DNA of 64,000 bases from an uncultured Pseudomonadota bacterium (GTDB lineage Bacteria > Myxococcota_A > UBA796 > JAFGLY01). Below are positions 1 to 9,957 of this stretch, one piece after another. The notes below the pieces were generated by a model, which was given only the letters and a program-made list of their open reading frames with translations, made no database searches and was not told the origin of the DNA. The position numbers and the translations under genes are program-made. Positions within the stretch are counted from its first letter, which is position 1. The number at the start of each line of letters is the position of its first letter. The stretch is taken from assembly GCA_937912125.1 (NCBI GenBank), contig CALDOK010000075.1, positions 1-64,000 of the forward strand, read 5' to 3'.

Positions 1-47
1 GCCCACCATCAAGCCCCTTCGACCTCGGTCGGAGGGGCTTTTTGGTT
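1..47 (+). repeat. Cassette-boundary hairpin element, copy R1 (left part cut by window edge)
   Basis: Only the hairpin half is inside the window. Stem arms are 11-22 (AAGCCCCTTCGA) and 29-40 (TCGGAGGGGCTT), giving 12 pairs with one T-G wobble, followed by TTTGGTT. The same sequence recurs at R2 to R6 in the same orientation. It lies 31 bp beyond the 3' end of the minus-strand nucleotidyltransferase gene, so its T-tract faces the wrong way to terminate that gene. Confidence 0.85.
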
Positions 48-77
48 CCGCGGGCGGGCGTGGGTCGCGGTGCCCAC

Positions 78-653
78 TCAAGTCGCGGCCGCGGCGGCCA
101 GCGCCTCGTCCAGCAACACCGTGAGCCCCTCATCGGCGGCAGCCTCACGCAGGTACATCAGGTCCAGATCGTTGGCGCGCACACGAAGGACGCCCAGCAC
201 ATCTCGCCACTGCCGCTCGGACACTCCGCCACCCTTCCGGAACCAGGCGAGCTTCTGCAATACGATGTCCTCTGCGCTGGCGAGAGGTAGACGCACACCC
301 TGCTCGATCTCGAAGTACTGCCTCCGGCTCATCTCTCCGCGCGAGAGCGGGTCCGCCTTCGCTACGAACACATCGACCTTGGTCATGGTGTCGAGGTGGA
401 TGAGGTTGCAGGACGCGCGCCTCTTCACGGCGCCCATCACCGCCTGGGCGTCGACGTAGAAGCGGTCCTGCAGAGCTGCAGTGAACGCTGCGACATGCAC
501 GCCCAGGAGGTCTGCGACGAGATCCACATCCTGCGTGCTGCGCGGGATTCCGTGCAAGGACGAGGCCACCGAGCCACCCACCAACCAGGGCACACCGAGA
601 TCATCGAGCACCTCGCCCACTAGGAGCGCGACGGCGAGGGGTTCGGCCAGCAC
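78..653 (-). CDS. Minimal nucleotidyltransferase-fold protein (toxin/antitoxin type)
   Basis: 191 aa. The nucleotidyltransferase signature is visible: GGSVASS (residues 26-32), then the metal-binding pair D42-x-D44 in TQDVDLV and a likely third acid, D94, in TKVDVFV. A conserved segment AEDIVLQKLAWFRKGG follows near 128-143. Proteins with this layout are usually annotated as nucleotidyltransferase or AbiEii-like and occur in two-gene toxin-antitoxin modules. The start is GTG at 653, 4 bp after the stop of the upstream 87-aa gene and without its own Shine-Dalgarno, so it is probably translationally coupled. A truncated copy of its first codons survives inside the duplicated block at 4940-5394. 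The transferred nucleotide and target are unknown; AMP transfer to protein or RNA is only an inference from the fold. Confidence 0.75.
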   Translation of the reverse strand: MLAEPLAVALLVGEVLDDLGVPWLVGGSVASSLHGIPRSTQDVDLVADLLGVHVAAFTAALQDRFYVDAQAVMGAVKRRASCNLIHLDTMTKVDVFVAKADPLSRGEMSRRQYFEIEQGVRLPLASAEDIVLQKLAWFRKGGGVSERQWRDVLGVLRVRANDLDLMYLREAAADEGLTVLLDEALAAAAAT

Positions 654-657
654 GGGT

Positions 658-921
658 CTAGTATCCTTCGACAGCCGGGTCCCAGCCGAACGCAGACCGC
701 ATCAGGTCAGCCGGCAGCCACAGCGAAGCCAGCCTCAGCTTCTGCTCCCGCTCGTCGGCATCAGGATGCTGGGCTCGAATCCGAGCGAGCGCCATCTGCT
801 GCACTCCCTGGGTCAACGCGACGACTCGTGCGAGCTTCTGCGCCGGGGACATACGCCGGTACCCCTCGACCATCAGTCGCAGCACCTCGGGAGCGGTGTC
901 ATCGCATTCGGTGAGTTTCAT
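658..921 (-). CDS. Small helical protein, partner of the nucleotidyltransferase (copy 1)
   Basis: 87 aa, predicted mostly helical, with no signal peptide or membrane segment. Segments such as LRLMVEGYRRMSPAQKL and the C-terminal FGWDP look conserved. It lies directly upstream of the nucleotidyltransferase gene with a 4-bp gap, the normal arrangement of a small partner or antitoxin with its NTase. The biochemical role is unknown. A second copy at 4975-5238 differs at five residues (D7E, Q38R, L62P, P70S, S76T) and has no NTase partner. ATG start; I see no strong Shine-Dalgarno. Confidence 0.7.
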   Translation of the reverse strand: MKLTECDDTAPEVLRLMVEGYRRMSPAQKLARVVALTQGVQQMALARIRAQHPDADEREQKLRLASLWLPADLMRSAFGWDPAVEGY

Positions 922-1000
922 GGTTCCAGTCTACATCGGGAAGAAACACCCCGCCAAGCGAGCCAGGACTGGCCCTCGGGACATGTCCCCTTGGTGCAGC

Positions 1001-1077
1001 CAGAAAGTTCGAACGTCATCCAATATCCCCCACCATCAAGCCCCTTCGATCTTGGTCGGAGGGGCTTTATGGTTTTG
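1001..1077 (+). repeat. Cassette-boundary hairpin element, copy R2
   Basis: Full-length copy: CAGAAAGTTCGAACGTCATC, then CAATATCCCCCACCATC, then the hairpin (arms 1038-1049 and 1056-1067, loop TCTTGG), then TATGGTTTTG. It lies between the promoter side of the minus-strand NTase pair and the plus-strand peptidase gene. It is also the right end of the 455-bp duplication (623-1077 matching 4940-5394). Confidence 0.85.
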
Positions 1078-1157
1078 CGGACCTGGCTCCCACACCTGCA
1101 CGCGGTCTCACTGCTGGATGCCCAGCGCGTTCAATCCAGGTTCGCCCACCTTCGGAG

Positions 1158-1181
1158 CCCCCTCGGGTCACCCCGAGGGGG
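1158..1181. terminator. Strong GC hairpin
   Basis: CCCCCTCGGG and its near-perfect complement CCCGAGGGGG are separated by about 3 to 4 bases. It is followed by TCTCTTCG, only weakly T-rich. It could be a terminator remnant or simply a stable stem. It is not related in sequence to the R elements. Confidence 0.4.
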
Positions 1182-1241
1182 TCTCTTCGTAGGCCCGCGC
1201 TTCCATGGGATGCTCCGCCCCGTCGCGCGTGTCCCCTCCGC

Positions 1242-2168
1242 ATGTTCCTCCTGCCAGGAAAGAGCTTCTCGGGGCGGCCTCCTCCCCTTTCCTCGGAGGA
1301 CCGTTCCTGCGCAGACAGGCTCGGAGCCGATCTCGAGGTCTTGGTCCGCAACTTCGGCCCCCGACACCTGGGAGGACGCGAGCAGGCCCTGTCAGAGGCG
1401 GCGGAATGGCTCGAGCGGAGGCTGGAGGAGGCTGGCCTCGCCCCCCACCGAGAGCGCTTCCAGGCGGGAACCACCAAGGTCTTCAATGTGCTGGCCGAGC
1501 CCCCCGGGGCGAGCCCCGAAGCTCCGGTACTCATCGTCGGGGCGCACTATGACACCGTTCCGGGAAGCCCCGGCGCCAACGACAACGGCTCGGGCGTGGT
1601 GACGGTCCTCGAGCTGGCCCGACGCTTCGCCCGGCGCCCCACGCAGCGTCGGTTGCGTTTCGCCCTGTTCGTGAACGAGGAGGCCCCCTGGTTCATGTCC
1701 CCGTCCATGGGCTCACTGGTGCATGCGCAAGGCTGCCGGAAGCGCGGTGAGCGGGTGTCGGGCATGCTCTGCCTCGAGAGCGTCGGCGTCTACATCGACC
1801 TGCCAGGAAGCCAGCGCTACCCCCCTCCCCTCGAGCAGCTCTACCCGGACCGAGGCGACTTCGTGGCCTTCGTGGGAAACCTGGCCTCGCGCAGGCTCTT
1901 GTGGGGGAGCATTGGCGCCTTCAGGGCCCGCGCCTGCCTGCCCTCCGAGGGGCTGCTGGCCCCGGAGTGGGCCCTGCGCGACATCGGGCGCAGCGACCAC
2001 AAGGCCTTCTGGGGCTGCGGCTACCCGGCGGTGATGCTCACCGACACCGCGAACTTCAGGGACGCCTGGTACCACACGCCCCTCGACCGGCCAGGAAACC
2101 TGGACCTGGAGAGTATGGCGAGGCTGATCGATGGGCTCGAGGCGGTCATCCTCGACCGGATTGGCTGA
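1242..2168 (+). CDS. M28-family zinc metallopeptidase
   Basis: 308 aa. M28 aminopeptidase signatures are present: GAHYDTVPGSPGANDNGSG (residues about 105-123) provides the first zinc His and the bridging Asp. NEEAPWF (about 148) holds the Glu-Glu pair, LESVG follows, and the C-terminal WYHTPLDRP supplies the last zinc His. The first 40 residues are Pro-rich and not recognisable; no signal peptide is evident, so it may be cytoplasmic. The ATG at 1242 has no clear Shine-Dalgarno. It is convergent with the AbiEii-like gene, with 26 bp between the stops. A peptidase is an odd member of an island otherwise dominated by toxin-antitoxin genes. Substrate unknown. Confidence 0.8.
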   Translation: MFLLPGKSFSGRPPPLSSEDRSCADRLGADLEVLVRNFGPRHLGGREQALSEAAEWLERRLEEAGLAPHRERFQAGTTKVFNVLAEPPGASPEAPVLIVGAHYDTVPGSPGANDNGSGVVTVLELARRFARRPTQRRLRFALFVNEEAPWFMSPSMGSLVHAQGCRKRGERVSGMLCLESVGVYIDLPGSQRYPPPLEQLYPDRGDFVAFVGNLASRRLLWGSIGAFRARACLPSEGLLAPEWALRDIGRSDHKAFWGCGYPAVMLTDTANFRDAWYHTPLDRPGNLDLESMARLIDGLEAVILDRIG

Positions 2169-2194
2169 TCTCGTTCCAATCGGAACCGAACCCG

Positions 2195-2857
2195 CTACCA
2201 GGCCGGCCTGGAGAGCAGCGCCATGCGCTCGACCAGAGCGTCGCGGAACGCCGCCAGCTCCGAGCCGCCGTCCTCGGACATACCACTCGCCCGGACGAGC
2301 GCGGCGACAGGGAGTTCACGTAGGACCCATGCGAGGGTCGCGGGCGAGAAGCCGCCGTCCTTGACCGCGGCATCCGCGAGGGCGCGCTCGAGATCGCCCC
2401 CAAGCTCGAGCAAGGCCTTGGTGTCCACCAGATCCCGCAACTCGCTCCTGGACAGCAGAGCGTTGAGCTTGTTGACCAGGATCTCGTGTGGGGTGTCGAC
2501 CAGGAAGGACGCTTCGGAGCCTCCCCTCCGCTCTGGAGGCTCGATGGGGGGGACAGGGTCGGCGACCAGGTCCACCAGGACCACCTCCGCCCCAGCGGAA
2601 GCCCGCAGCGTGCAGAAGGTCGGCGTCCGTCGAAGGATCGAGACCTCGATCCCGGCATCCTCGAGCGCAACCTGGATGGGCTCGAGCGCGGGGAGCCGCG
2701 CCAGGCCATGCCAGAACAGATCCAGGTCCCGGGTCTCGCGATGCCCCAGGTGAAAGCCGACGAGCGCCGCCCCGCCGGTCAGGGTCCACGGCGGCTGCTG
2801 GTCGGCGAGGATGGTGAGGATGCGACCCTGCAGTGATGAAAGCCGGCTATCGCTCAT
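2195..2857 (-). CDS. AbiEii-type nucleotidyltransferase
   Basis: 220 aa from the ATG at 2857. The NTase core is GGAALVGFHLGHRETRDLDLF, with GG at 28-29, D44 and D46; a third acid is likely D96 in LVDLVADP. The AbiEii-family tail is visible as HEILVNKLNALLSRSELRDLVD (about 124-145). The chosen start overlaps the end of the upstream 100-aa gene by 11 bp; the open frame continues further upstream, but that part is the shadow of the neighbour. AbiEii toxins transfer nucleotides and are neutralised by a cognate partner; here the upstream gene is not an AbiEi-type winged-helix protein, so this is a different class of pair. Target unknown. Confidence 0.75.
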   Translation of the reverse strand: MSDSRLSSLQGRILTILADQQPPWTLTGGAALVGFHLGHRETRDLDLFWHGLARLPALEPIQVALEDAGIEVSILRRTPTFCTLRASAGAEVVLVDLVADPVPPIEPPERRGGSEASFLVDTPHEILVNKLNALLSRSELRDLVDTKALLELGGDLERALADAAVKDGGFSPATLAWVLRELPVAALVRASGMSEDGGSELAAFRDALVERMALLSRPAW

Positions 2858-3149
2858 CGTGCGCCTTCCAGGTCTCGAGCAGCCACCGCCAGAACTCACG
2901 GGTCCTGCCCAAGTGGGGCTCCAGCCGCGCCCAGCACCTCCGGATCTCGCCTTCGGTGGTGTAGAGGAAGACATCGTCCGGCTTGGCCTGGCGCATGAGC
3001 TTGCCCAGCAAGACACCTCGCAGTTCATCCTCGGCGCCCGAGAGGAGCCCTCGAAACTGCTCGTCTGTCATGTCGGAGTCCCAGAGGAAGTAGGGTCTTC
3101 CCTGGGGATCCAGGAGGCGTTCGGCTGGCGTGGGGCACATCATCCCCAC
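2847..3149 (-). CDS. Small partner protein of the AbiEii-type NTase
   Basis: 100 aa, rich in Trp, Arg and acidic residues. The N-terminal DPQGRPYFLWDSDMT and the C-terminal RTREFWRWLLETW are its most distinctive segments. It overlaps the downstream NTase gene by 11 bp, which indicates coupled translation and a two-gene module. The first possible start is GTG at 3149; ATG codons at 3143 and 3140 are equally plausible. No known domain is recognised. A role as the neutralising partner of the NTase is inferred from gene order only. Confidence 0.65.
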   Translation of the reverse strand: MGMMCPTPAERLLDPQGRPYFLWDSDMTDEQFRGLLSGAEDELRGVLLGKLMRQAKPDDVFLYTTEGEIRRCWARLEPHLGRTREFWRWLLETWKAHDER

Positions 3150-3208
3150 GATCGTACCATGAGCCGGGCGAGGACGCCGTCATCGGAGGCATCGGAGCAC
3201 AACGCCCA

Positions 3209-3280
3209 GGTTCGAACGTCGTCCAATATCCCCCACCATCAAGCCCCTTCGTTCTCGGTCGGAGGGGCTTTTTGGTTGTG
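3209..3280 (+). repeat. Cassette-boundary hairpin element, copy R3
   Basis: GGTTCGAACGTCGTCCAATA, then TCCCCCACCATC, then the hairpin AAGCCCCTTCG/CGGAGGGGCTT with loop TTCTCGGT, then TTTGGTTGTG. It lies upstream of both neighbouring modules (5' of the minus-strand NTase pair, 5' of the plus-strand hip operon), so it cannot be a terminator for either. Confidence 0.85.
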
Positions 3281-3370
3281 GATCTTCGAGAAGGAGAAGG
3301 AGAACGCGGTCCCACTCCAGGATGGCTCGTGCAGAGGCCACGAGACCCTACGCCCCACGCCATGGAGCGC

Positions 3371-3399
3371 TTGCCCCTCCCCTGATTACCGTCTATATT
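3371..3399 (+). promoter_or_regulatory. Putative promoter of the hipBA-type operon
   Basis: TTGCCC at 3371-3376, a 17-bp spacer, then TATATT at 3394-3399, within an unusually AT-rich stretch (about 3380-3455) for this genome. The element lies 39 to 67 bp before the likely start of the XRE gene. HipB-type proteins usually repress their own operon, so an operator overlapping this region would be expected; GTTACC occurs twice (about 3406 and 3440) but not as a clean palindrome. Confidence 0.45.
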
Positions 3400-3437
3400 T
3401 TGTTCGTTACCATCATAATGCGAGCTTTTCTGTTCAA

Positions 3438-3734
3438 ATGTTACCGCTTACGCTCATGTCCGCCCCGCAGGTGGCCCAACAGGTCGCGGCCCGGGTGCGG
3501 GCGAGCCGGCTCCACCGTGTCTGGACCCAGCAGGAACTGGCCGACCGATCGGGGATGAGCCTGTCGAGCCTGCGACGCTTCGAGCGCACCGGCGAGATCG
3601 CCTTCCTGTCGCTGGTGCGCATAGCCATCGCCCTTGATGCGGTGGAAGGCCTCGGCGAGCTGTTTCCCGACCGCCCGGGGAGCCTCGACGAGCTGTTGGC
3701 TCCCCCAAAGCGCCAGCGAGGACGACGCTCATGA
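3438..3734 (+). CDS. XRE-type helix-turn-helix antitoxin (HipB-like)
   Basis: 98 aa from the ATG at 3438 (a second ATG at 3456 is possible; neither has a good Shine-Dalgarno). The XRE helix-turn-helix covers roughly residues 18-72, with TQQELADRSGMSLSSLRRFE as the two-helix core and ALDAVEGLGELF after it. The last residues are basic (PPKRQRGRRS). The stop overlaps the start of the HipA-like gene (ATGA), the classical order for antitoxin then toxin. Expected role: DNA-binding autorepressor and neutraliser of the HipA-family kinase. Confidence 0.8.
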   Translation: MLPLTLMSAPQVAQQVAARVRASRLHRVWTQQELADRSGMSLSSLRRFERTGEIAFLSLVRIAIALDAVEGLGELFPDRPGSLDELLAPPKRQRGRRS

Positions 3735-4978
3735 GGCTGAACGCGAACCAGGCGCTAGAGGTGCGGCTGCGGTGGGCTGTGGGAGACGAGCTACGGGTGG
3801 GGCGCCTGGCCTGGCGGGACCGGCGCGCGTGGCTGGAGCTCGACGAGGCGTTCCTGGCGGCAGGGCCGCCCCTCTCCCCGTTCCATCTTCCGGTCAGGCC
3901 GGGGCTCATCCCCGCCCCCCTCGAACCCTTCGAGGGTCTGTTCGGCGTCTTCGACGACAGCCTCCCCGACGGCTGGGGCCGCCTGCTACAGGACCGCCGC
4001 GCGACCGCCTCCGGCCTCTCCCCTGCGACCCTGACCCCCCTCGATCGGCTGGCGTGGGTCGGTGACACCGGGATCGGGGCGCTCGCCTACCGACCCGAGC
4101 TGATGGGGACCGGCGAGCAAGACCACGCGCTGGACCTCGACCGGCTCGCCCAGGAGAGCAGCGAAGTGCTCGCAGGAGCAGCCGACGAAGTGCTCGCGGA
4201 GCTGCAGAGGCTCGGCGGCTCTCCCCAAGGCGCTCGACCCAAGGTCCTCGTGTCCCTCCGCCCCAGCGACGGCCATGTCGTCTCGACACCTACGGAAGAG
4301 GGCCACACCCCGGTCCTCGTCAAGTTTCTGGCCCCCCACGACGCCCTGGACGCTGGCCCAGTGGAGTACACCTACCACCGCCTGGCGCGAGATTCCGGGC
4401 TGCAGGTGCCCGACGCTTGGCTGCTAGCCAGCCGCTCCAGCGGCGGCTGGTTCGCGGTGGCGCGCTTCGACCTCCAGCCAGAACATCGCTGGCATGTCCA
4501 TACGCTCTGCGGACTGCTGCACGCGGACCACCGGCTCCCTTCGCTGGACTACGTCGGCGCCCTCACCGCGGTCCACCGGCTCACTGGCGACCAGCAGCAG
4601 CTCGAGCAGATGTTCCGACGAATGGTGTTCAACGTCCTTGCCCACAACCGCGACGACCACACCAAGCAGGTCAGCCTGCGCATGGACCGCGGTGGTGAGT
4701 GGACCCTCGCACCCGCCTACGACCTCACGTTCGCTGAAGGTCCCGGGGGAGAACACAGCATGGCGATCGCTGGTGCTGGGCGGCCAGGGCGAGAGGACAT
4801 GCTGAACGTGGGCCGGCAGGCAGGGGTTACCTCTGGTACCGCCAATGCCATCATCGATGATGTGGCGGAGGTCATCAGCTCCAGGTGGTCACGCTACGCG
4901 GCGGAGGCTGGGGTCAGCGAGCGGATGATGCGAGAGATTGGAGCGCGGCTGCGAGGGGTTCGGCCAGCACGGGTCTAG
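3731..4978 (+). CDS. HipA-family serine/threonine kinase toxin
   Basis: 415 aa. The HipA N-terminal subdomain is recognisable (GLFGVFDDSLPDGWGRLLQD), as is WVGDTGIGALAY. The kinase active-site segment lies at 306-332: HNRDDHTKQ (D308, D309) and LAPAYDL (D331). In E. coli HipA and most relatives the residue after the Lys is Asn; here it is Gln (Q313). It overlaps the XRE gene by 4 bp. The last dozen codons (from 4940) run into the 455-bp duplicated block, and the stop TAG at 4976-4978 is the same triplet found next to the first copy at 658-660, so the original C-terminus may have been replaced on insertion. HipA toxins phosphorylate glutamyl-tRNA synthetase or other targets; the target here is unknown. 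Confidence 0.85.
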   Translation: MRLNANQALEVRLRWAVGDELRVGRLAWRDRRAWLELDEAFLAAGPPLSPFHLPVRPGLIPAPLEPFEGLFGVFDDSLPDGWGRLLQDRRATASGLSPATLTPLDRLAWVGDTGIGALAYRPELMGTGEQDHALDLDRLAQESSEVLAGAADEVLAELQRLGGSPQGARPKVLVSLRPSDGHVVSTPTEEGHTPVLVKFLAPHDALDAGPVEYTYHRLARDSGLQVPDAWLLASRSSGGWFAVARFDLQPEHRWHVHTLCGLLHADHRLPSLDYVGALTAVHRLTGDQQQLEQMFRRMVFNVLAHNRDDHTKQVSLRMDRGGEWTLAPAYDLTFAEGPGGEHSMAIAGAGRPGREDMLNVGRQAGVTSGTANAIIDDVAEVISSRWSRYAAEAGVSERMMREIGARLRGVRPARV

Positions 4979-5238
4979 TATCCTTCAACAGCCGGATCCC
5001 AGCCGAACGCAGTCCGCATCAGGTCAGCCGACAGCCACAGCGAAGCCAGCCTCGGCTTCTGCTCCCGCTCATCGGCATCGGGATGCTGGGCTCGAATCCG
5101 AGCGAGTGCCATCTGCTGCACTCCCCGGGTCAACGCGACGACTCGCGCGAGCTTCTGCGCCGGGGACATACGCCGATACCCCTCGACCATCAGCCGCAGC
5201 ACCTCGGGAGCGGTGTCCTCGCATTCGGTGAGCTTCAT
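4975..5238 (-). CDS. Orphan duplicate of the small NTase-partner protein (copy 2)
   Basis: 87 aa, 82 of 87 residues identical to the product of 658-921. The NTase gene that should follow is missing: only about ten codons of its start remain before the sequence runs into hipA. The frame is intact and the substitutions are few, which suggests recent duplication or continued selection. An orphan antitoxin can protect against a toxin encoded elsewhere, but that role is an inference. It overlaps the 3' end of the convergent hipA-like gene by 4 bp. Confidence 0.65.
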   Translation of the reverse strand: MKLTECEDTAPEVLRLMVEGYRRMSPAQKLARVVALTRGVQQMALARIRAQHPDADEREQKPRLASLWLSADLMRTAFGWDPAVEGY

Positions 5239-5317
5239 GGTTCCATGTCTACTTCGGAAGGAAACACGCCGCCAAGCGAGTCCGGACCAGGCCTCGGGAC
5301 AGGTCCCCTGGGTTCAC

Positions 5318-5394
5318 CCAAAAAGTCCGAGTGTTGTCCAATATCCCTCACCTCGAGTCCCTTCGATCTCGGTCGGAAGAGCTTTTTGGTTTTG
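5318..5394 (+). repeat. Cassette-boundary hairpin element, copy R4 (diverged)
   Basis: CCAAAAAGTCCGAGTGTTGT, then CCAATATCCCTCACCTC, then GAGTCCCTTCGATCTCGGTC, then GGAAGAGCTTTTTGGTTTTG. It has more substitutions than the other copies; the stem keeps most pairs (AGTCCCTTCGA against TCGGAAGAGCT is weaker). It is the right end of duplicated block B. Confidence 0.8.
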
Positions 5395-5479
5395 AAGGGG
5401 ACGAGGAAGGTCCGAGCAGCCGGACCGAGGCGGTCAGCACGTCGAAGGCCTCGTTCATCGAAGCTCGACGCTTCCCCTG

Positions 5480-5923
5480 TCACTCCACAACGGTGACGAG
5501 CAGCAAGCCCGCGATGCAGGCGCCCTCAGCCTCATCGACGGTCACCTTCACCTCGTAGTCCCCGCTCGTGGCGGGGACCCATTCCAGGCCCTCCGCTACG
5601 GGGTAGCTCATCGACTTGGACTCCGACCAGGAGTCGTCCGTCGCCCGCGCCAGGATCGTGGCGCTCTTGCAGCCGGGGTTGGCCAGGAAGACAAGGACGC
5701 CGTAGTTCCCGCCCTGGGTGAGGGAGTGCAGAGCCCTCATGGACTCTCCCACGGCGAGCGTGGACACGCCCTCGGACAGGATCGTCCCGCCCTCCTCGAT
5801 CATGCGCTCCCTGATGGGCTTCAGGAATTCTTCTCGGACGGACGCTTCGGTGGAATCGGCGCTGGCCGAGCCGCAGAACAGGGTGGAGCCGATCAGAAGG
5901 ACGGAAGCGGTCAGATGGTGCAT
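5480..5923 (-). CDS. Small exported protein of unknown function
   Basis: 147 aa. The N-terminus [20 protein letters not shown] is a typical signal peptide, with probable cleavage after ASA at about residue 22; TLFC is a poor lipobox. The mature part is acidic, with two separated Cys (C in NPGCKS and C in EGACIAG) that could form a disulfide. No family is recognised. The start ATG lies just after the macro-domain remnant on the same strand. The 3' side faces R4. Confidence 0.6.
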
Positions 5924-6060
5924 GGTTCACCTGTTTTGGCTGTTTCTCGAACGATAGCACAGCGGTGCTCGGTTTCGGAGAGGCGGATCGCCCCGCCCCA
6001 TTCCAACAGCACTGGGTTGGCCGCGTTGACGATGGCGTCGACCTCCAGCCGGGCGATGTC
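5911..6060 (-). pseudogene. Macro-domain protein remnant
   Basis: Reading leftward from 6060 the frame gives [19 protein letters not shown], the unmistakable start of a macro domain (ADP-ribose-binding fold), then [18 protein letters not shown]. An intact macro domain would have the GGGVDGAIHRAAG-type loop, then about 100 more residues. Here the loop is shortened and the frame ends at a stop at 5911. The open frame extends upstream to 6186 but that part is antisense to the transketolase remnant and has no recognisable sequence. I interpret this as a decayed 5' fragment. Confidence 0.7.
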
Positions 6061-6075
6061 CGCGTTTTGCTCCCC

Positions 6076-6262
6076 GGTGGCGTGCGGTCCTACTGCGGCA
6101 CCTTCATGGTCTTCCACGACTACATGCGACCCGCGGTGCGCCTGGCGGCCTTCGAGAGGCTGCCGGTGATCTAGTTCAACACTCACGACTCAATCTTCGT
6201 GGGCAGGGACGGCCCCACGGCCATCTGCCTCACCCGCCAGGGCCTGCCGGTGATGGACCGGG
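6076..6262 (+). pseudogene. Transketolase gene remnant
   Basis: In one plus-strand frame the translation contains [20 protein letters not shown] then [12 protein letters not shown], a stop (TAG, 6172-6174), then FNTHDSIFVGRDGPT and AICLTRQGLPVMDRG. These match successive conserved segments of transketolase (the pyrimidine-binding domain around the FxDYxRPAxRLAAL, THDSIxxGEDGPTHQP and LTRQxLPxLDR motifs), in the right order. About 50 residues are missing between DGPT and AICLTRQ, and a nonsense codon interrupts it. No start or remaining parts of the gene are present. This is a gene fossil inside the cassette between R4 and R5. Confidence 0.75.
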
Positions 6263-6549
6263 GGTTGAGCATGGCGCGAACCACCGACGACGCCTTCCAA
6301 GGCCGACGGTGCCCAGCCGACTCAGCGTTGAGGACGTGGTCCCCAGCGTGACTGTCAAGTGCAGAGGCAAAAGGACAACGAGCCCACCTACACCCAAGGC
6401 ATCCACCGCCCCCCTCCCCCCAGAAAGTTCGAACGTCGTCCAATATCCCCCACCATCGAGCCCCTTCGATCTCGGTCGGAGGGGCTTTTTGGTTGGGGGA
6501 CACGCACCGCCGACACGCACGTTTCTTCACTCTGAGTTAAGGTTTGCGC
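6263..6549. other. Non-coding stretch with R5 leader
   Basis: After the transketolase remnant no coding signal continues. It contains a pyrimidine-rich run before R5 (CCCCCCTCCCCCCAG near 6408-6422), R5 itself, and the 55-bp leader of the abiEi-like gene. AAGG at 6539-6542 is the likely Shine-Dalgarno of that gene. Confidence 0.5.
6421..6494 (+). repeat. Cassette-boundary hairpin element, copy R5 (closest to consensus)
   Basis: CAGAAAGTTCGAACGTCGTC, then CAATATCCCCCACCATCG, then the hairpin AGCCCCTTCGA/TCGGAGGGGCT with loop TCTCGG, then TTTTGGTT. It sits upstream of the plus-strand AbiEi/AbiEii pair and downstream, in the same direction, of the decayed transketolase gene. Confidence 0.88.
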
Positions 6550-7119
6550 ATGAACCTCAACGCACCATCCTGGGATCACCTCTACGAGCAAGCCGCCTCC
6601 CAGGCCGGGTACTTCACCACAACCCAGGCAGCCGAGGCGGGTTTCTCGTCGCCGCTGCTCCACAAGTACCTGGCCAGGGGCAAGGTCGCTCGGATGCGTC
6701 GCGGCGTGTACCGGCTGGTGCACTTCCCCGCCAGCGAGGACGAGGACCTGGTTGTCCTCTGGCTGTGGAGCGAGCGGCAAGGCATTTTCAGTCACGAGAC
6801 TGCCCTGGTGCGCCACGAACTGTCCAATCTGCTCCCCCACGAGGTGGAGATGACGGTGCCTCGAGCCTGGAGCCGTCGGCGCCTACGCGTACCTGTGGGA
6901 CTTCGGCTGCACTATTCGGATCTGGTCCCCAGCGACCACGCATGGCATGGCCCTGTACCCATCACAAACCCCGCCCGCGCCGTCAACGAATGCGCAGCGG
7001 CGGGGGTCTCCCCGGAATTCATCGAGCAGGCTATCCGACAAGGGCTCGACCGGGGGATCTTCACGGAGCGGGACATCGCCCACGCGCAAAAGGTAGTCGA
7101 CGCCCAGGTGAATTCGTGA
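6550..7119 (+). CDS. AbiEi-family antitoxin (type IV TA)
   Basis: 189 aa. The N-terminal winged helix-turn-helix covers roughly residues 12-55, with GYFTTTQAAEAGFSS then LLHKYLARGKVARMRRGVYR, the usual AbiEi-type signature. The rest resembles the C-terminal domain of AbiEi-like antitoxins (NPARAVNECAAAGVSPEFIE). The ATG at 6550 is preceded by AAGG at 6539-6542; a TTG six bases upstream is less likely. Its TGA overlaps the GTG start of the abiEii-like gene. AbiEi proteins repress their own operon through the winged helix and counter the NTase toxin without stable binding. It also acts in abortive phage defence in known cases. Confidence 0.85.
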   Translation: MNLNAPSWDHLYEQAASQAGYFTTTQAAEAGFSSPLLHKYLARGKVARMRRGVYRLVHFPASEDEDLVVLWLWSERQGIFSHETALVRHELSNLLPHEVEMTVPRAWSRRRLRVPVGLRLHYSDLVPSDHAWHGPVPITNPARAVNECAAAGVSPEFIEQAIRQGLDRGIFTERDIAHAQKVVDAQVNS

Positions 7120-8051
7120 GCCGCTACGCAACCCCCGCGGCCTTCAAGGAGGCCCTCGAGGCGAGACTACGCAGCGAAGCCCAGCGAACGGCCAGAGACC
7201 AGAACCGACTGCGGTTGCGCCTGGTCATGGACCGCTTCGCGGGCCGAGTCGCCCTGGAGTACGGTGAGGCGATGGTCGTGAAAGGTGGGGTCGTCCTGGA
7301 ACTCCGCCTCGCCGAGGCACGCGCCACCAAGGACCTCGACCTGCACCTCCGCGGTCAGCCTGGCGAGGCCCTCTCTCGGCTCCAGCGTGCTGGCAGATCG
7401 GACCTCGGCGACCACCTGTTGTTCGAGGTCCAACCCGACCCCCGCCACCCGACCATCGACGCCGAAGGGATGCGCTACGAGGGGCTCCGCTTTCGGGTCC
7501 AGGCCAGGCTGGCCGGCAAGCGCTACGCAGGTCCTTTCGGGCTCGACGCGGCCTTCGCCGAGCCGATGGTCGGTGTCCCCGACCTCATCGCCTGCTCGGA
7601 CTTCCTGCATTTCGCCGGCATTTCAGCACCCACGCTGAGGATCTACCCAATCGAGACCCACCTGGCCGAGAAACTCCACGCCCTGACGATCCCCCGCGCC
7701 AGGCCGAACTCCCGGGTGAAGGACCTCCCCGACATCGCCCTGCTCGCTCGCGTGGGGACCATCGAGGCGAGCGTGCTCCGTAGAGCGATCTCCCAGACCT
7801 TCGCGCACCGCGGCGTGATCCCGGTGCCAGCTGCGCTCCCGGCTCCACCGAGCGGCTGGGCCACGCCCTACCAGCGGCTGGCAGTCCGCGACCACCTGCC
7901 CTGGGCCGTTCTCGACGCGGTCATCGAGGCTGCCCGGGCATTCATCGATCCAGTGCTGGCTGGTGGACAGGGTCTGTGGAGCCCAGACCGCTGGGTGTGG
8001 ATGCCTGAGGAGCACCAAGAGCAAGGTCGGGACGACAGCAAAGACGACTGA
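7116..8051 (+). CDS. AbiEii-family nucleotidyltransferase toxin (type IV TA)
   Basis: 311 aa from the GTG at 7116, overlapping the abiEi stop (GTGA). NTase motifs: KGGVVLELRL at 56-65 and TKDLDLHL at 71-78 (D73, D75). The GLDAAFAEPMVG segment near 140 and ETHLAEKLHALTIPR near 190 are typical of AbiEii/COG2253 proteins, the Lys being a conserved active-site residue. The C-terminal 60 residues are less conserved and end in an acidic tail. Together with the upstream gene it forms a standard AbiE module. R6 starts 42 bp after the stop, with its T-tract correctly placed to terminate this operon. Confidence 0.85.
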   Translation: MSRYATPAAFKEALEARLRSEAQRTARDQNRLRLRLVMDRFAGRVALEYGEAMVVKGGVVLELRLAEARATKDLDLHLRGQPGEALSRLQRAGRSDLGDHLLFEVQPDPRHPTIDAEGMRYEGLRFRVQARLAGKRYAGPFGLDAAFAEPMVGVPDLIACSDFLHFAGISAPTLRIYPIETHLAEKLHALTIPRARPNSRVKDLPDIALLARVGTIEASVLRRAISQTFAHRGVIPVPAALPAPPSGWATPYQRLAVRDHLPWAVLDAVIEAARAFIDPVLAGGQGLWSPDRWVWMPEEHQEQGRDDSKDD

Positions 8052-8092
8052 TCTCGACGGGTTCAGCGACCGCCCACCCCTCCCCCACCCCC

Positions 8093-8166
8093 CAATAAGT
8101 TCGAACATCGTCCAACATCCCCCACCATCAAGCCCCTTCGATTCGCTTCGGAGGGGCTTTTTGGTT
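8093..8166 (+). repeat. Cassette-boundary hairpin element, copy R6
   Basis: CAATAAGTTCGAACATCGTC, then CAACATCCCCCACCATC, then the hairpin AAGCCCCTTCGATTCGCTTC, then GGAGGGGCTTTTTGGTT. The loop differs from the other copies (ATTCGCT). The preceding CCCACCCCTCCCCCACCCCC run resembles that before R5 and R7. It lies 42 bp after the abiEii-like stop. Confidence 0.85.
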
Positions 8167-8585
8167 GTGGGCTTCCTCTGTGAAGCCGCGCAGGTGGCGC
8201 AATGACTTTCGCTGCTCAACCTTCGGCTTGCTGCCGCCCATTACTGGTTTCGTACGAAGCAGATCGAGCAAGATCGGCTGCGCGTGGGGCATCCGCCGAG
8301 ACTTCAGGGAATCCAGCACCAGGACGTACCAGCCCTCATCACCGCACCGAGATCACGACTCTGCTCTCCGCAGTTCGCCTGACGGGAGCCCGCTCGAACC
8401 GGCAAACCCGCCGTACAGGAGCGGTCCCGCGTGTACAGGCAGCGTGCCTGTTGGGCCGCGAGACCGTCAAGATGCCTGCAGAAGCGGGAGCGAACCTCCT
8501 CAACGCCTTCTCTCCCTACCACCGCACGCTGAGTGTCCATGTATTTTGGCGGGCGCGCCTCCTTTTTTCATGGTTGCGTTCTCCC
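8167..8585. other. 419-bp stretch without a supported gene
   Basis: The frame of the downstream ATPase stays open through here, but the translation has no recognisable sequence and a composition unlike a real protein, so the ATG at 8586 is preferred. A 63-codon minus-strand frame (8128-8319) runs into R6 and is not convincing. I see no promoter or RNA gene. Confidence 0.4.
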
Positions 8586-9737
8586 ATGATCCCTCGACAA
8601 CGCCACACCAACACACTGCTGGACCTGCTTCGGCAATTCCCAGTGGCCGCAATCCTCGGGCCGCGACAGGTCGGAAAGACAACGCTTGCCCGTCAGGTGG
8701 CTGAAGCCTGGGATGGGCCCTTCCACAACTTCGACCTCGAAGATCCCGACGATCTCGCCCGCCTCGACGAGCCGAAGCTCGCCCTCGGCTCGCTGCGTGG
8801 CTTGGTCGTCCTCGACGAAGTGCAACGCCGACCCGGCCTCTTTCGGATCTTGAGGGTGCTCGCCGATCGGCCAGGCACACCCGCGCGCTTCCTTGTACTC
8901 GGGAGTGCCTCGCCGGAACTCCTCAGGCAGTCCTCGGAGACCCTGGCCGGACGGATCGTCTTTCACAGTCTCCCTGGCTTCGCCCTCGACGAAGTCGGCC
9001 ACCCGACACTCGACCAGCTATGGCTACGAGGCGGCTTCCCCCGCTCATTCCTCGCGGCCTCGGGTGCGGACAGCCTGCGATGGCGACGAGCGTTCATCCG
9101 CACTTTCCTCGAGCGCGACCTGCCGCAGCTCGGAAGTCGGGTACCAGGCACCACCCTGCACCGCTTCTGGACGATGCTCGCCCACTACCACGGTGATGTG
9201 CTCAACCTAGCGGAACTGGGGCGCGCATTCGCCGTCTCGAACCACACCGTCAGGAGCTACCTCGACCTGCTCACCGCCACCTTCGTGGTCCGCCAGCTTC
9301 CTCCATGGCACGAGAACCTGCGCAAGCGTCAGGTGTAACGCCCCAAAGTCTACCTCACCGACACCGGACTGTTGCACGCCCTGCTGGACCTCGAGGACCC
9401 CGTTGCGCTGGAGCGCCATCCAAAAGTGGGCGCGAGCTGGGAAGGCTTCGCGCTGTCTGAGGTGGTGCGATGCCTCGGCGCCCACGAAGGCGAGTGCTGG
9501 TTCTGGGGAACCCACCAGGGCGCGGAACTGGACCTGCTGGTCACGAGTGGGAACCGGCGGCTCGGCTTCGAGTTCAGGCGCACCACCGCGCCTCGGCGTA
9601 CAAAAAGCATGGCGATCGCACTGGCGGACCTGAGCCTCGACGAGTTCGTGCTGGTGCATGCAGGGGAGCACGCCTTCCCGATGGGCGAGAGAATCCGGGC
9701 GGTGCCCCTGGCCATGCTAGAGCAAGAAGTGGGATAG
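8586..9737 (+). pseudogene. AAA ATPase with DUF4143, interrupted by one in-frame stop
   Basis: Intended product about 383 aa. Walker A GPRQVGKTT (25-33), Walker B VVLDEVQ (74-80), and sensor-like VLGSASPELL place it in the AAA_14/DUF4143 family (COG1373-type). The second half shows the DUF4143 signature YLTDTGLLHALL and the C-terminal nuclease-like GAELDLLV. The frame is intact from 8586 to 9737 except for TAA at 9336-9338 (codon 251), between RKRQV and RPKVYLTD, where relatives usually have Lys or Arg. A single A-to-T change from AAA would create it. There is no frameshift, so the inactivation is recent, or readthrough, programmed recoding or a sequencing error applies. These ATPases are often found in accessory islands; the function is poorly defined. 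Confidence 0.8.
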
Positions 9738-9920
9738 CGGGCGCGCTCGAAGGCCAAGCGCCCATCAGCGTTGATCGGCAGCCGCAACGTACTGGGCGCG
9801 AAGTAGCCACAGCCACAGACATCACTCGGCAACTCGGGCCGGCCTGGTGTTGACGATTCCAGGCGTTCAAAGACTCTGGAGCGCGGCAACCTCGCCATCC
9901 CCCCACCCCTCCCCCACCAC

Positions 9921-9957
9921 CCAGAAAGGTCGAACGTCATCCAACATCCCCCACCAA
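9921..9957 (+). repeat. Cassette-boundary element, degenerate copy R7 (hairpin lost)
   Basis: CCAGAAAGGTCGAACGTCAT, then CCAACATCCCCCACCAA matches the left half of the element, but the right half is replaced by CGGCCCCCGGGAGCCGCACA. The upstream CCCCCCACCCCTCCCCCACC run matches that before R6. It marks the end of the array: no further copy is seen to the right, and core-type genes begin at 10034. Confidence 0.75.

Follow-up and report, generated by a model that had tools for sequence, protein, structure and literature searches.

Serial islands behind tRNA genes, delimited by repeated tRNA ends, are known, and in the parts of the literature considered here the small cassettes among them usually come without an identified recombinase. 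This report deals with an array of six such cassettes at the beginning of the window, i.e., the whole stretch of 64,000 nucleotides that was analysed (positions 1 to 64,000 of contig CALDOK010000075.1, designated C75). The source genome is a 9.27-Mb draft assembly, designated G000, and its host is related to uncultured Myxococcota metagenome-assembled genomes (MAGs). The cassettes are without an integrase, stand in tandem at the 3′ end of a tRNA-Val(CAC) gene and, to judge from their boundaries, were probably moved in trans by large serine integrases that resemble the Ccr recombinases.

Several kinds of tandem module invite comparison. The staphylococcal cassette chromosome (SCC) uses large serine recombinases (CcrAB or CcrC), and its cassettes stand in tandem at the 3′ end of one gene. 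The cis-mobilizable elements (CIMEs) of the ICESt1 family derive from integrative and conjugative elements that have tyrosine integrases and occupy another kind of site. Such elements, and the process of accretion, have been described as tandem modules that are flanked by att sites, lack an integrase and could be moved by the integrase of a related element (cited in PMC3146451). In Dehalococcoides, islands with DsiB, a Ccr-like serine integrase, stand in tandem at ssrA and are delimited by direct repeats of the 3′ end of this small-RNA gene; many of them are without the integration module and were called cis-mobilizable, with a six-gene module present in 16 of 31 (PMC3146451). The additive flexible genomic islands (fGIs) of Ca. 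Methylopumilus (PMC10872708) and Ca. Actinomarinales (PMC7771536) are series of cassettes at a tRNA gene, each of which duplicated a piece of the tRNA on insertion, and the cassettes are exchanged between genera. The portions of these two papers considered here name no recombinase for the cassettes, and describe neither a conserved right end that differs from the tRNA nor a terminator at the left end nor an integrase tail encoded at the boundary.

The array of the window belongs with the tRNA/ssrA serial islands that have Ccr-like serine integrases, as a new variant; the initial annotation, made from the sequence alone, had recognised no known family, and in this it needs correction. The Dehalococcoides islands target ssrA and are larger, whereas here the targets are tRNA-Val and tRNA-Leu genes and most cassettes measure about 1–4 kb, no complete cassette examined has an integrase gene that is intact, a terminator is present in most, and toxin-antitoxin genes make up the larger part of the cargo. 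An antisense integrase overlapping attL, as in the ssrA islands, occurs in related elements at tRNA-Val, tRNA-Leu and tRNA-Pro, but not in this array. As in the additive fGIs, the array starts at a tRNA, its boundaries are tRNA 3′ ends in the orientation of the tRNA, and in relatives the units are present or absent as wholes, with empty sites among them. Its cassettes resemble CIMEs in having att sites at both ends, with no serine or tyrosine recombinase found in the window; they differ in being many and small and in pointing to the serine-integrase family. Compared with SCC, the target is a tRNA gene and not rlmH, and there are no Ccr genes inside the cassettes. In tycheposons a tyrosine recombinase is combined with a tRNA boundary, whereas contig C75 gave no Phage_integrase match.

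Anatomy of the Array and Its tRNA Anchor

The core of the repeat, GTTCGAACGTCGTCCAATATC, is present in the window in five copies with at most three mismatches (starting at 1007, 3210, 6427, 8099 and 9928), where shuffled sequences lead one to expect none. Alignment, together with a genome-wide search (9.27 Mb of draft sequence), added a degenerate copy at 5325 and a hairpin-only copy at 1–47, which makes seven places, R1 to R7, all on the + strand. The initial annotation had described seven hairpin elements that all point the same way between modules coded on both strands, with R3 lying 5′ of both its neighbours; the places, the common direction, the use of both strands and the position of R3 were all borne out. 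The description of the element itself has to be revised, since only R2 to R6 have both halves, core and hairpin, while R1 has the hairpin alone and R7 the core alone. Outside the window, the only other strong match in the draft genome is the end of contig C454; the repeat is restricted to one locus, and not scattered at random over the genome, a distribution that the initial annotation had named as evidence against a cassette array.

Contig C454 ends with a tRNA-Val(CAC) gene (L019:10925-10999, predicted by ARAGORN), and its last 55 bases are 100% identical to positions 1–55 of the window. Because of this overlap between draft contig ends, the two contigs very probably adjoin. The last bases of the tRNA gene, TCCAGTATCGCCCACCA, continue directly into the R1 hairpin, and the array then starts at the 3′ end of an intact tRNA gene, here by way of the inferred contig join and in the same manner in relatives. 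The stretch TCCARTATCSCCCACC is common to the tRNA and the cores, with every copy on one strand and in the orientation of the tRNA, and the core is a modified tRNA 3′ end.

The repeat thus does not stand alone as a hairpin but is an attachment site fused from two parts, the right end of one cassette (29 nt, GTTCGAAC...CCCACCA) and the left-end terminator of the next; a strong terminator-like hairpin lies within every full copy. R1 consists of tRNA and hairpin, R2 to R6 of core and hairpin, and R7 of core and chromosomal flank, an order that is the attL, tandem-junction and attR layout of six integrated cassettes, whose lengths are 1027, 2203, 2114, 1103, 1672 and 1829 bp, from the first to the sixth. 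That all copies share one direction regardless of the strand of the cargo is explained by the terminator being the left end of the cassette, which would come to lie behind the tRNA whenever a cassette is inserted. At 1129–1190, some 100 bp beyond R2, there is an eighth, degenerate attachment site (GTTCAATCCAGGTTCGCCCACC) with a terminator hairpin of its own, which the initial annotation does not list; it is either an emptied mini-cassette or an old site.

Attachment-Site Geometry

In the tRNAs, GTTCRA lies 24 nt from the end of CCCACCA, and in the cassettes 29 nt; measured from GTTCGAAC to where CCC[AG]CCN stops, 32 of the 37 pairs have this spacing of 29 nt. Serine integrases read a zinc-domain motif that is shifted by 5 bp between attP and attB (PMC3783163), and the spacings of 24 and 29 nt match this known shift, the tRNA then corresponding to attB and the cassette end to attP. 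If GTTCRA marks the outer edge of the site, the crossover would fall inside CCCACCA, the stretch common to tRNA and cassettes. On the right side of the attachment sites no conserved motif was found, which suggests that one half-site may carry the identity of the site. A palindromic motif (GAAC/GGAC after CCCACCA) was considered as a right half-site and dropped, being probably part of the terminator stem.

This geometry permits a tentative model of a serine-integrase counterpart of the integron, which we regard as possible but less likely than not: attB and attP would differ in one half-site only (a zinc-domain motif 24 or 29 nt from the end of CCCACCA), with the other half neutral, each insertion at the tRNA would recreate attB, and the internal junctions would be attP. 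The same enzyme could then both add and excise cassettes without a directionality factor, unlike phage serine integrases.

Arrays in Relatives and Moving Units

Relatives were surveyed in a class sample of 71 draft genomes, one per species and related by descent. A DNA search of this sample found the core also in other families, in same-strand clusters. When the species genomes of GTDB were scanned for the pattern, all hits were in MAGs whose titles read Deltaproteobacteria, Myxococcota or proteobacteria, except for one entitled Klebsiella pneumoniae. The latter (CAMAWH010000014.1 and CAMAWH010000002.1) groups with this Myxococcota-like order (as G037) and is probably mislabelled. Phages, plasmids and viral contigs were searched for the repeat, and none was found to contain it. 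Arrays or single cores stand behind tRNA-Leu(CAA) (L044, L045) and tRNA-Val(CAC) (L056, L063, L066, L070), always in the orientation of the tRNA. The terminator sequences vary between genomes, while CCCACCA and the 29-nt core are kept; in family f4 a right end of ~110 bp is conserved. A further motif, GTTCAAG, lies +74 to +79 after CCCACCA in several left ends (L044, L045, L056, L061, L129, L131), and at +44/+124 in G037. It was counted 17 times in 5.8 kb of left ends and 4 times in 53.6 kb of cassette interiors, is present in most terminator-bearing left ends of the f4 family and is real, but lies outside the array of the window.

The initial annotation had proposed a gene-cassette array, or modules with a shared boundary, which would be contradicted if modules never varied as units; in the genomes compared they do vary as units. 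A core-bounded cassette of another family (G055) matches the AbiE cassette of the window with 72.7% identity over 1,247 bp, a cassette of exactly the same length, 935 bp, is common to G057 and G055, and the first place behind the tRNA is taken by one and the same two-gene cassette at tRNA-Leu in G037 and at tRNA-Val in G049 and a third genome. The same cassettes thus recur across families and at different tRNAs, and these comparisons show them moving as units.

An empty site could be recognised in genus g25, at the 3′ end of its tRNA-Leu. The gap between the tRNA and the next gene is 21–23 bp in three species (G039, G047, G049) and 479–897 bp in four others (G041, G044, G046, G048), and in G045 it reaches 16,578 bp, mostly filled by core-bounded cassettes. 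The 819-bp gap of G048 contains a VapBC-like pair, related to pairs inside arrays. Here too, presence and absence of units were seen with one genome standing for each species.

A Candidate Recombinase

Large serine recombinases are encoded on the antisense strand at the end of tRNA-Val(CAC) in G057, G059 and G035 and of tRNA-Leu(CAA) in G030. These proteins, with Resolvase and Recombinase domains, measure about 530–590 aa; the one at L119 has Resolvase, Recombinase and zinc-ribbon domains and that at L140 Resolvase and Recombinase. Remnants of such integrases were found at further tRNA ends (L112, L116, L120, L124) and in an array of G040. Against the NCBIfam CcrA and CcrB models the integrases scored 52–87 bits, where the equivalog cut-offs are 700–900 bits; the best score, 87 bits, stands against a cut-off of 700, so they are not Ccr equivalogs in the SCC sense, and the family is placed near the Ccr recombinases only distantly. 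It is present in 24 of the 71 class genomes, G000 included, and most of the loci examined (L163-L192) are at tRNA or tmRNA 3′ ends (Pro, Val, Leu, Gln, Asn, Asp, Glu, Arg and ssrA).

The integrase gene reads antisense into the tRNA and ends within the RNA gene or just beyond it, its frame running into the tRNA with the tail WWAILDLNQ*. On the antisense strand, nearly all cassette right ends code for a similar tail, WW[AG]x[LF]xx[VF]RT, and in 15 right ends of the f4 family this frame shows an excess of variation at third positions (p=0.0005). In G040 an integrase remnant is fused directly to a core through a tail of this type. The tail common to integrase and cassette right ends suggests that, once such an element is circular, its integrase frame would continue across the attachment site into the right end. 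DsiB of the Dehalococcoides ssrA islands has the same oddity (PMC3146451). The conserved right end had also been considered as the end of a sense-strand protein, SSNLF*, which was rejected, as the upstream frames are unrelated and the antisense tail explains the right end.

The repeat is the attachment site of a site-specific recombinase, most likely a large serine integrase, and the following course of events is proposed. Six small integrative cassettes would have entered in succession behind one tRNA-Val(CAC) gene, at its 3′ end, each spanning from a transcription terminator on the left to a 29-nt right end that mimics the tRNA, with strand exchange inside the shared 7 bp, CCCACCA. After insertion, the terminator would stand directly behind the tRNA or the preceding cassette. 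The cassettes encode no recombinase; insertion and excision would most likely be carried out in trans by the Ccr-like serine integrase family, elements of which are found in relatives at this and further tRNA 3′ ends and in G000 at another site. The cassettes would be integrase-less derivatives that retained the attachment site of such elements. We infer that a serine integrase does the recombination, acts in trans and is still active. In these terms the array most likely works like an integron with a different enzyme. It is to large serine integrases that the anatomy of the boundaries, the integrase tail encoded at the ends of the cassettes and the shift by 5 nt all point, which gives the pattern a testable mechanism. 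It suggests, too, that integron-like capture of small, mostly toxin-antitoxin cassettes arose with a recombinase of unrelated chemistry. Serine integrases that target tRNA genes and come with candidate natural attB/attP pairs could also serve as tools.

Presence of arrays and of the integrase family co-occur in the class sample (Fisher p=0.016, in a test that ignores kinship). Several observations weigh against the assignment to this family. The initial annotation had seen no integrase in view, rightly, for neither the serine-integrase nor the Phage_integrase search matched the window, and none was found in or adjoining the array. The complete integrase copy of G000 has a tRNA-Pro-like antisense tail, and a second copy is cut by a contig end. 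Four of the 12 array carriers are without a full member of the family at E<=1e-60, and in the fetched sequence no intact tRNA-Val integrase element could be traced to its complete right end. No tRNA is near the arrays of G055 and G057 on their contigs. Lastly, the genomes are drafts, the co-occurrence test is blind to kinship, and excision circles are invisible in assemblies.

Alternative Explanations

The modules might instead be passive remnants of full-size tRNA-targeted islands that had integrases of their own, integrated serially and then eroded. The integrase remnants at tRNA ends and in the G040 array agree with this, as do the broken ATPase frame, the fused hipA and the degenerate R4 of the window. 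We nevertheless consider it unlikely, as short cassettes without an integrase, of equal or similar length and with both ends intact, are found across genera and at different tRNA genes. Equal-sized cassettes in different genera imply either movement after the cassettes had become small or independent identical deletions.

That a tyrosine recombinase moves the cassettes, as in most tRNA-targeted islands, has in its favor that tyrosine integrases are the usual users of tRNA sites and that G000 has 20 Phage_integrase matches at E<=0.001. The initial annotation had suggested looking for a tyrosine recombinase or relaxase near the array; no tyrosine recombinase was found there, relaxases not having been searched for. 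The core lay within about 5 kb of none of the 40 fetched Phage_integrase loci (nine genomes), and only Xer-like (XerC/D-like) proteins and IntI were common to the array carriers among these loci. A tyrosine enzyme would account neither for the shift by 5 nt nor for the tail that cassettes and serine integrase have in common, and seems quite improbable.

Still less probable, by a wide measure, is an integron-type array, i.e., a cluster of attC sites lacking an integron integrase (CALIN), served in trans by IntI. Chromosomal integrons do have similarly small, toxin-antitoxin-rich cassettes with boundary repeats all in one orientation, and true integron integrases (TIGR02249) are encoded in several class genomes (L089-L092, L097), four of them array-bearing. 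G000, however, has no IntI by the TIGR02249 search, presence of IntI is not associated with that of arrays (p=0.48), and inspection of the repeat ends, with the folds examined, showed none of the R″ (RYYYAAC) and R′ (GTTRRRY) boxes of attC. Insertion is at tRNA ends, no core lies within about 5 kb of the fetched IntI loci, and the recombinase indicated here is a different one. A direct-repeat search of five fetched IntI loci showed no obvious attC-like repeat family.

Hardly credible at all is a dispersed terminator, or an element like a miniature inverted-repeat transposable element, at coincidental boundaries with homologous recombination shuffling the modules, for, although each full copy has a strong terminator-like hairpin and the 90% duplication within the window shows some homologous shuffling, the copies are confined to one tRNA-anchored locus, R1 and R7 are complementary halves at opposite ends of the array, the hairpins vary in sequence from genome to genome where core and tRNA anchoring are kept, g25 has an empty site at the tRNA 3′ end, and cassettes are exchanged as units.

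Cargo and Features of the Window

Features of the array in the window, with coordinates in the window
Feature	Position	Strand	Basis or remark
R1, attL-type junction: last bases of tRNA-Val(CAC), GCCCACCA (1–8), and cassette 1 terminator	1..46	+	ARAGORN, contig overlap
Cassette 1: AbiEii-like nucleotidyltransferase (78–653, −), Rv0078B-like antitoxin (658–921, −)	9..1035		Pfam, both weak, below gathering cut-off
R2, tandem junction: core (1007–1035) and terminator hairpin	1007..1072	+	Alignment, genome search
Extra degenerate attachment site GTTCAATCCAGGTTCGCCCACC with own terminator hairpin	1129..1190	+	TCCAGGTTCGCCCACC as in a G055 core
Cassette 2: M28 peptidase (1242–2168, +), AbiEii nucleotidyltransferase (2195–2857, −), small partner open reading frame (2847–3149, −)	1036..3238
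R3, tandem junction: core (3210–3238) and terminator	3210..3276	+
Cassette 3: XRE-type regulator, HipA (3731–4978, +)	3239..5352		XRE-type regulator as read in the initial annotation
Cassette 3, right part: 90% copy of cassette 1 right end; orphan antitoxin-like open reading frame (4975–5238, −)	4940..5394
R4, tandem junction: degenerate core and terminator	5325..5393	+
Cassette 4: small secreted protein (5480–5923, −), gene remnants	5353..6455
R5, tandem junction: core (6427–6455) and terminator	6427..6493	+
Cassette 5: AbiEi (6544–7119), AbiEii (7116–8051)	6456..8127	+	Pfam; counterpart in G055
R6, tandem junction: core (8099–8127) and terminator	8099..8165	+
Cassette 6: AAA_14/DUF4143 ATPase (8586–9338), TAA-broken frame, remainder (9372–9737)	8128..9956	+
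R7, attR-type junction: core only, then chromosomal flank (SDR gene from 10034, − strand)	9928..9956	+

The cargo of the six cassettes consists for the most part of toxin-antitoxin genes. Pfam searches gave three AbiEii-type nucleotidyltransferases (one weak), a weak Rv0078B antitoxin, AbiEi, HipA, an M28 peptidase and an AAA_14/DUF4143 ATPase. The modules had been called self-contained, a description that needs two reservations. Positions 623–1077 and 4940–5394 are 90% identical: a second copy of the end of cassette 1 closes the HipA module, and the stop of hipA falls within it. Cassette 3 is thus a fusion, its final 450 bp being this copy. The ATPase is interrupted by an in-frame TAA at about 9336 (9330–9345), beyond which the frame is intact.

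In other arrays the cargo includes PIN, MazE-like, ParE and addiction-module proteins. At three loci (L044:2837-4267, L066 and L056) the first cassette behind the tRNA is a pair of genes for proteins of ~117 and 128 aa, neither of which had a Pfam match. The position of this pair behind the first tRNA in three genomes led to its being considered as a recombinase, of which it shows no sign; it is a candidate for a new toxin-antitoxin or defence pair.

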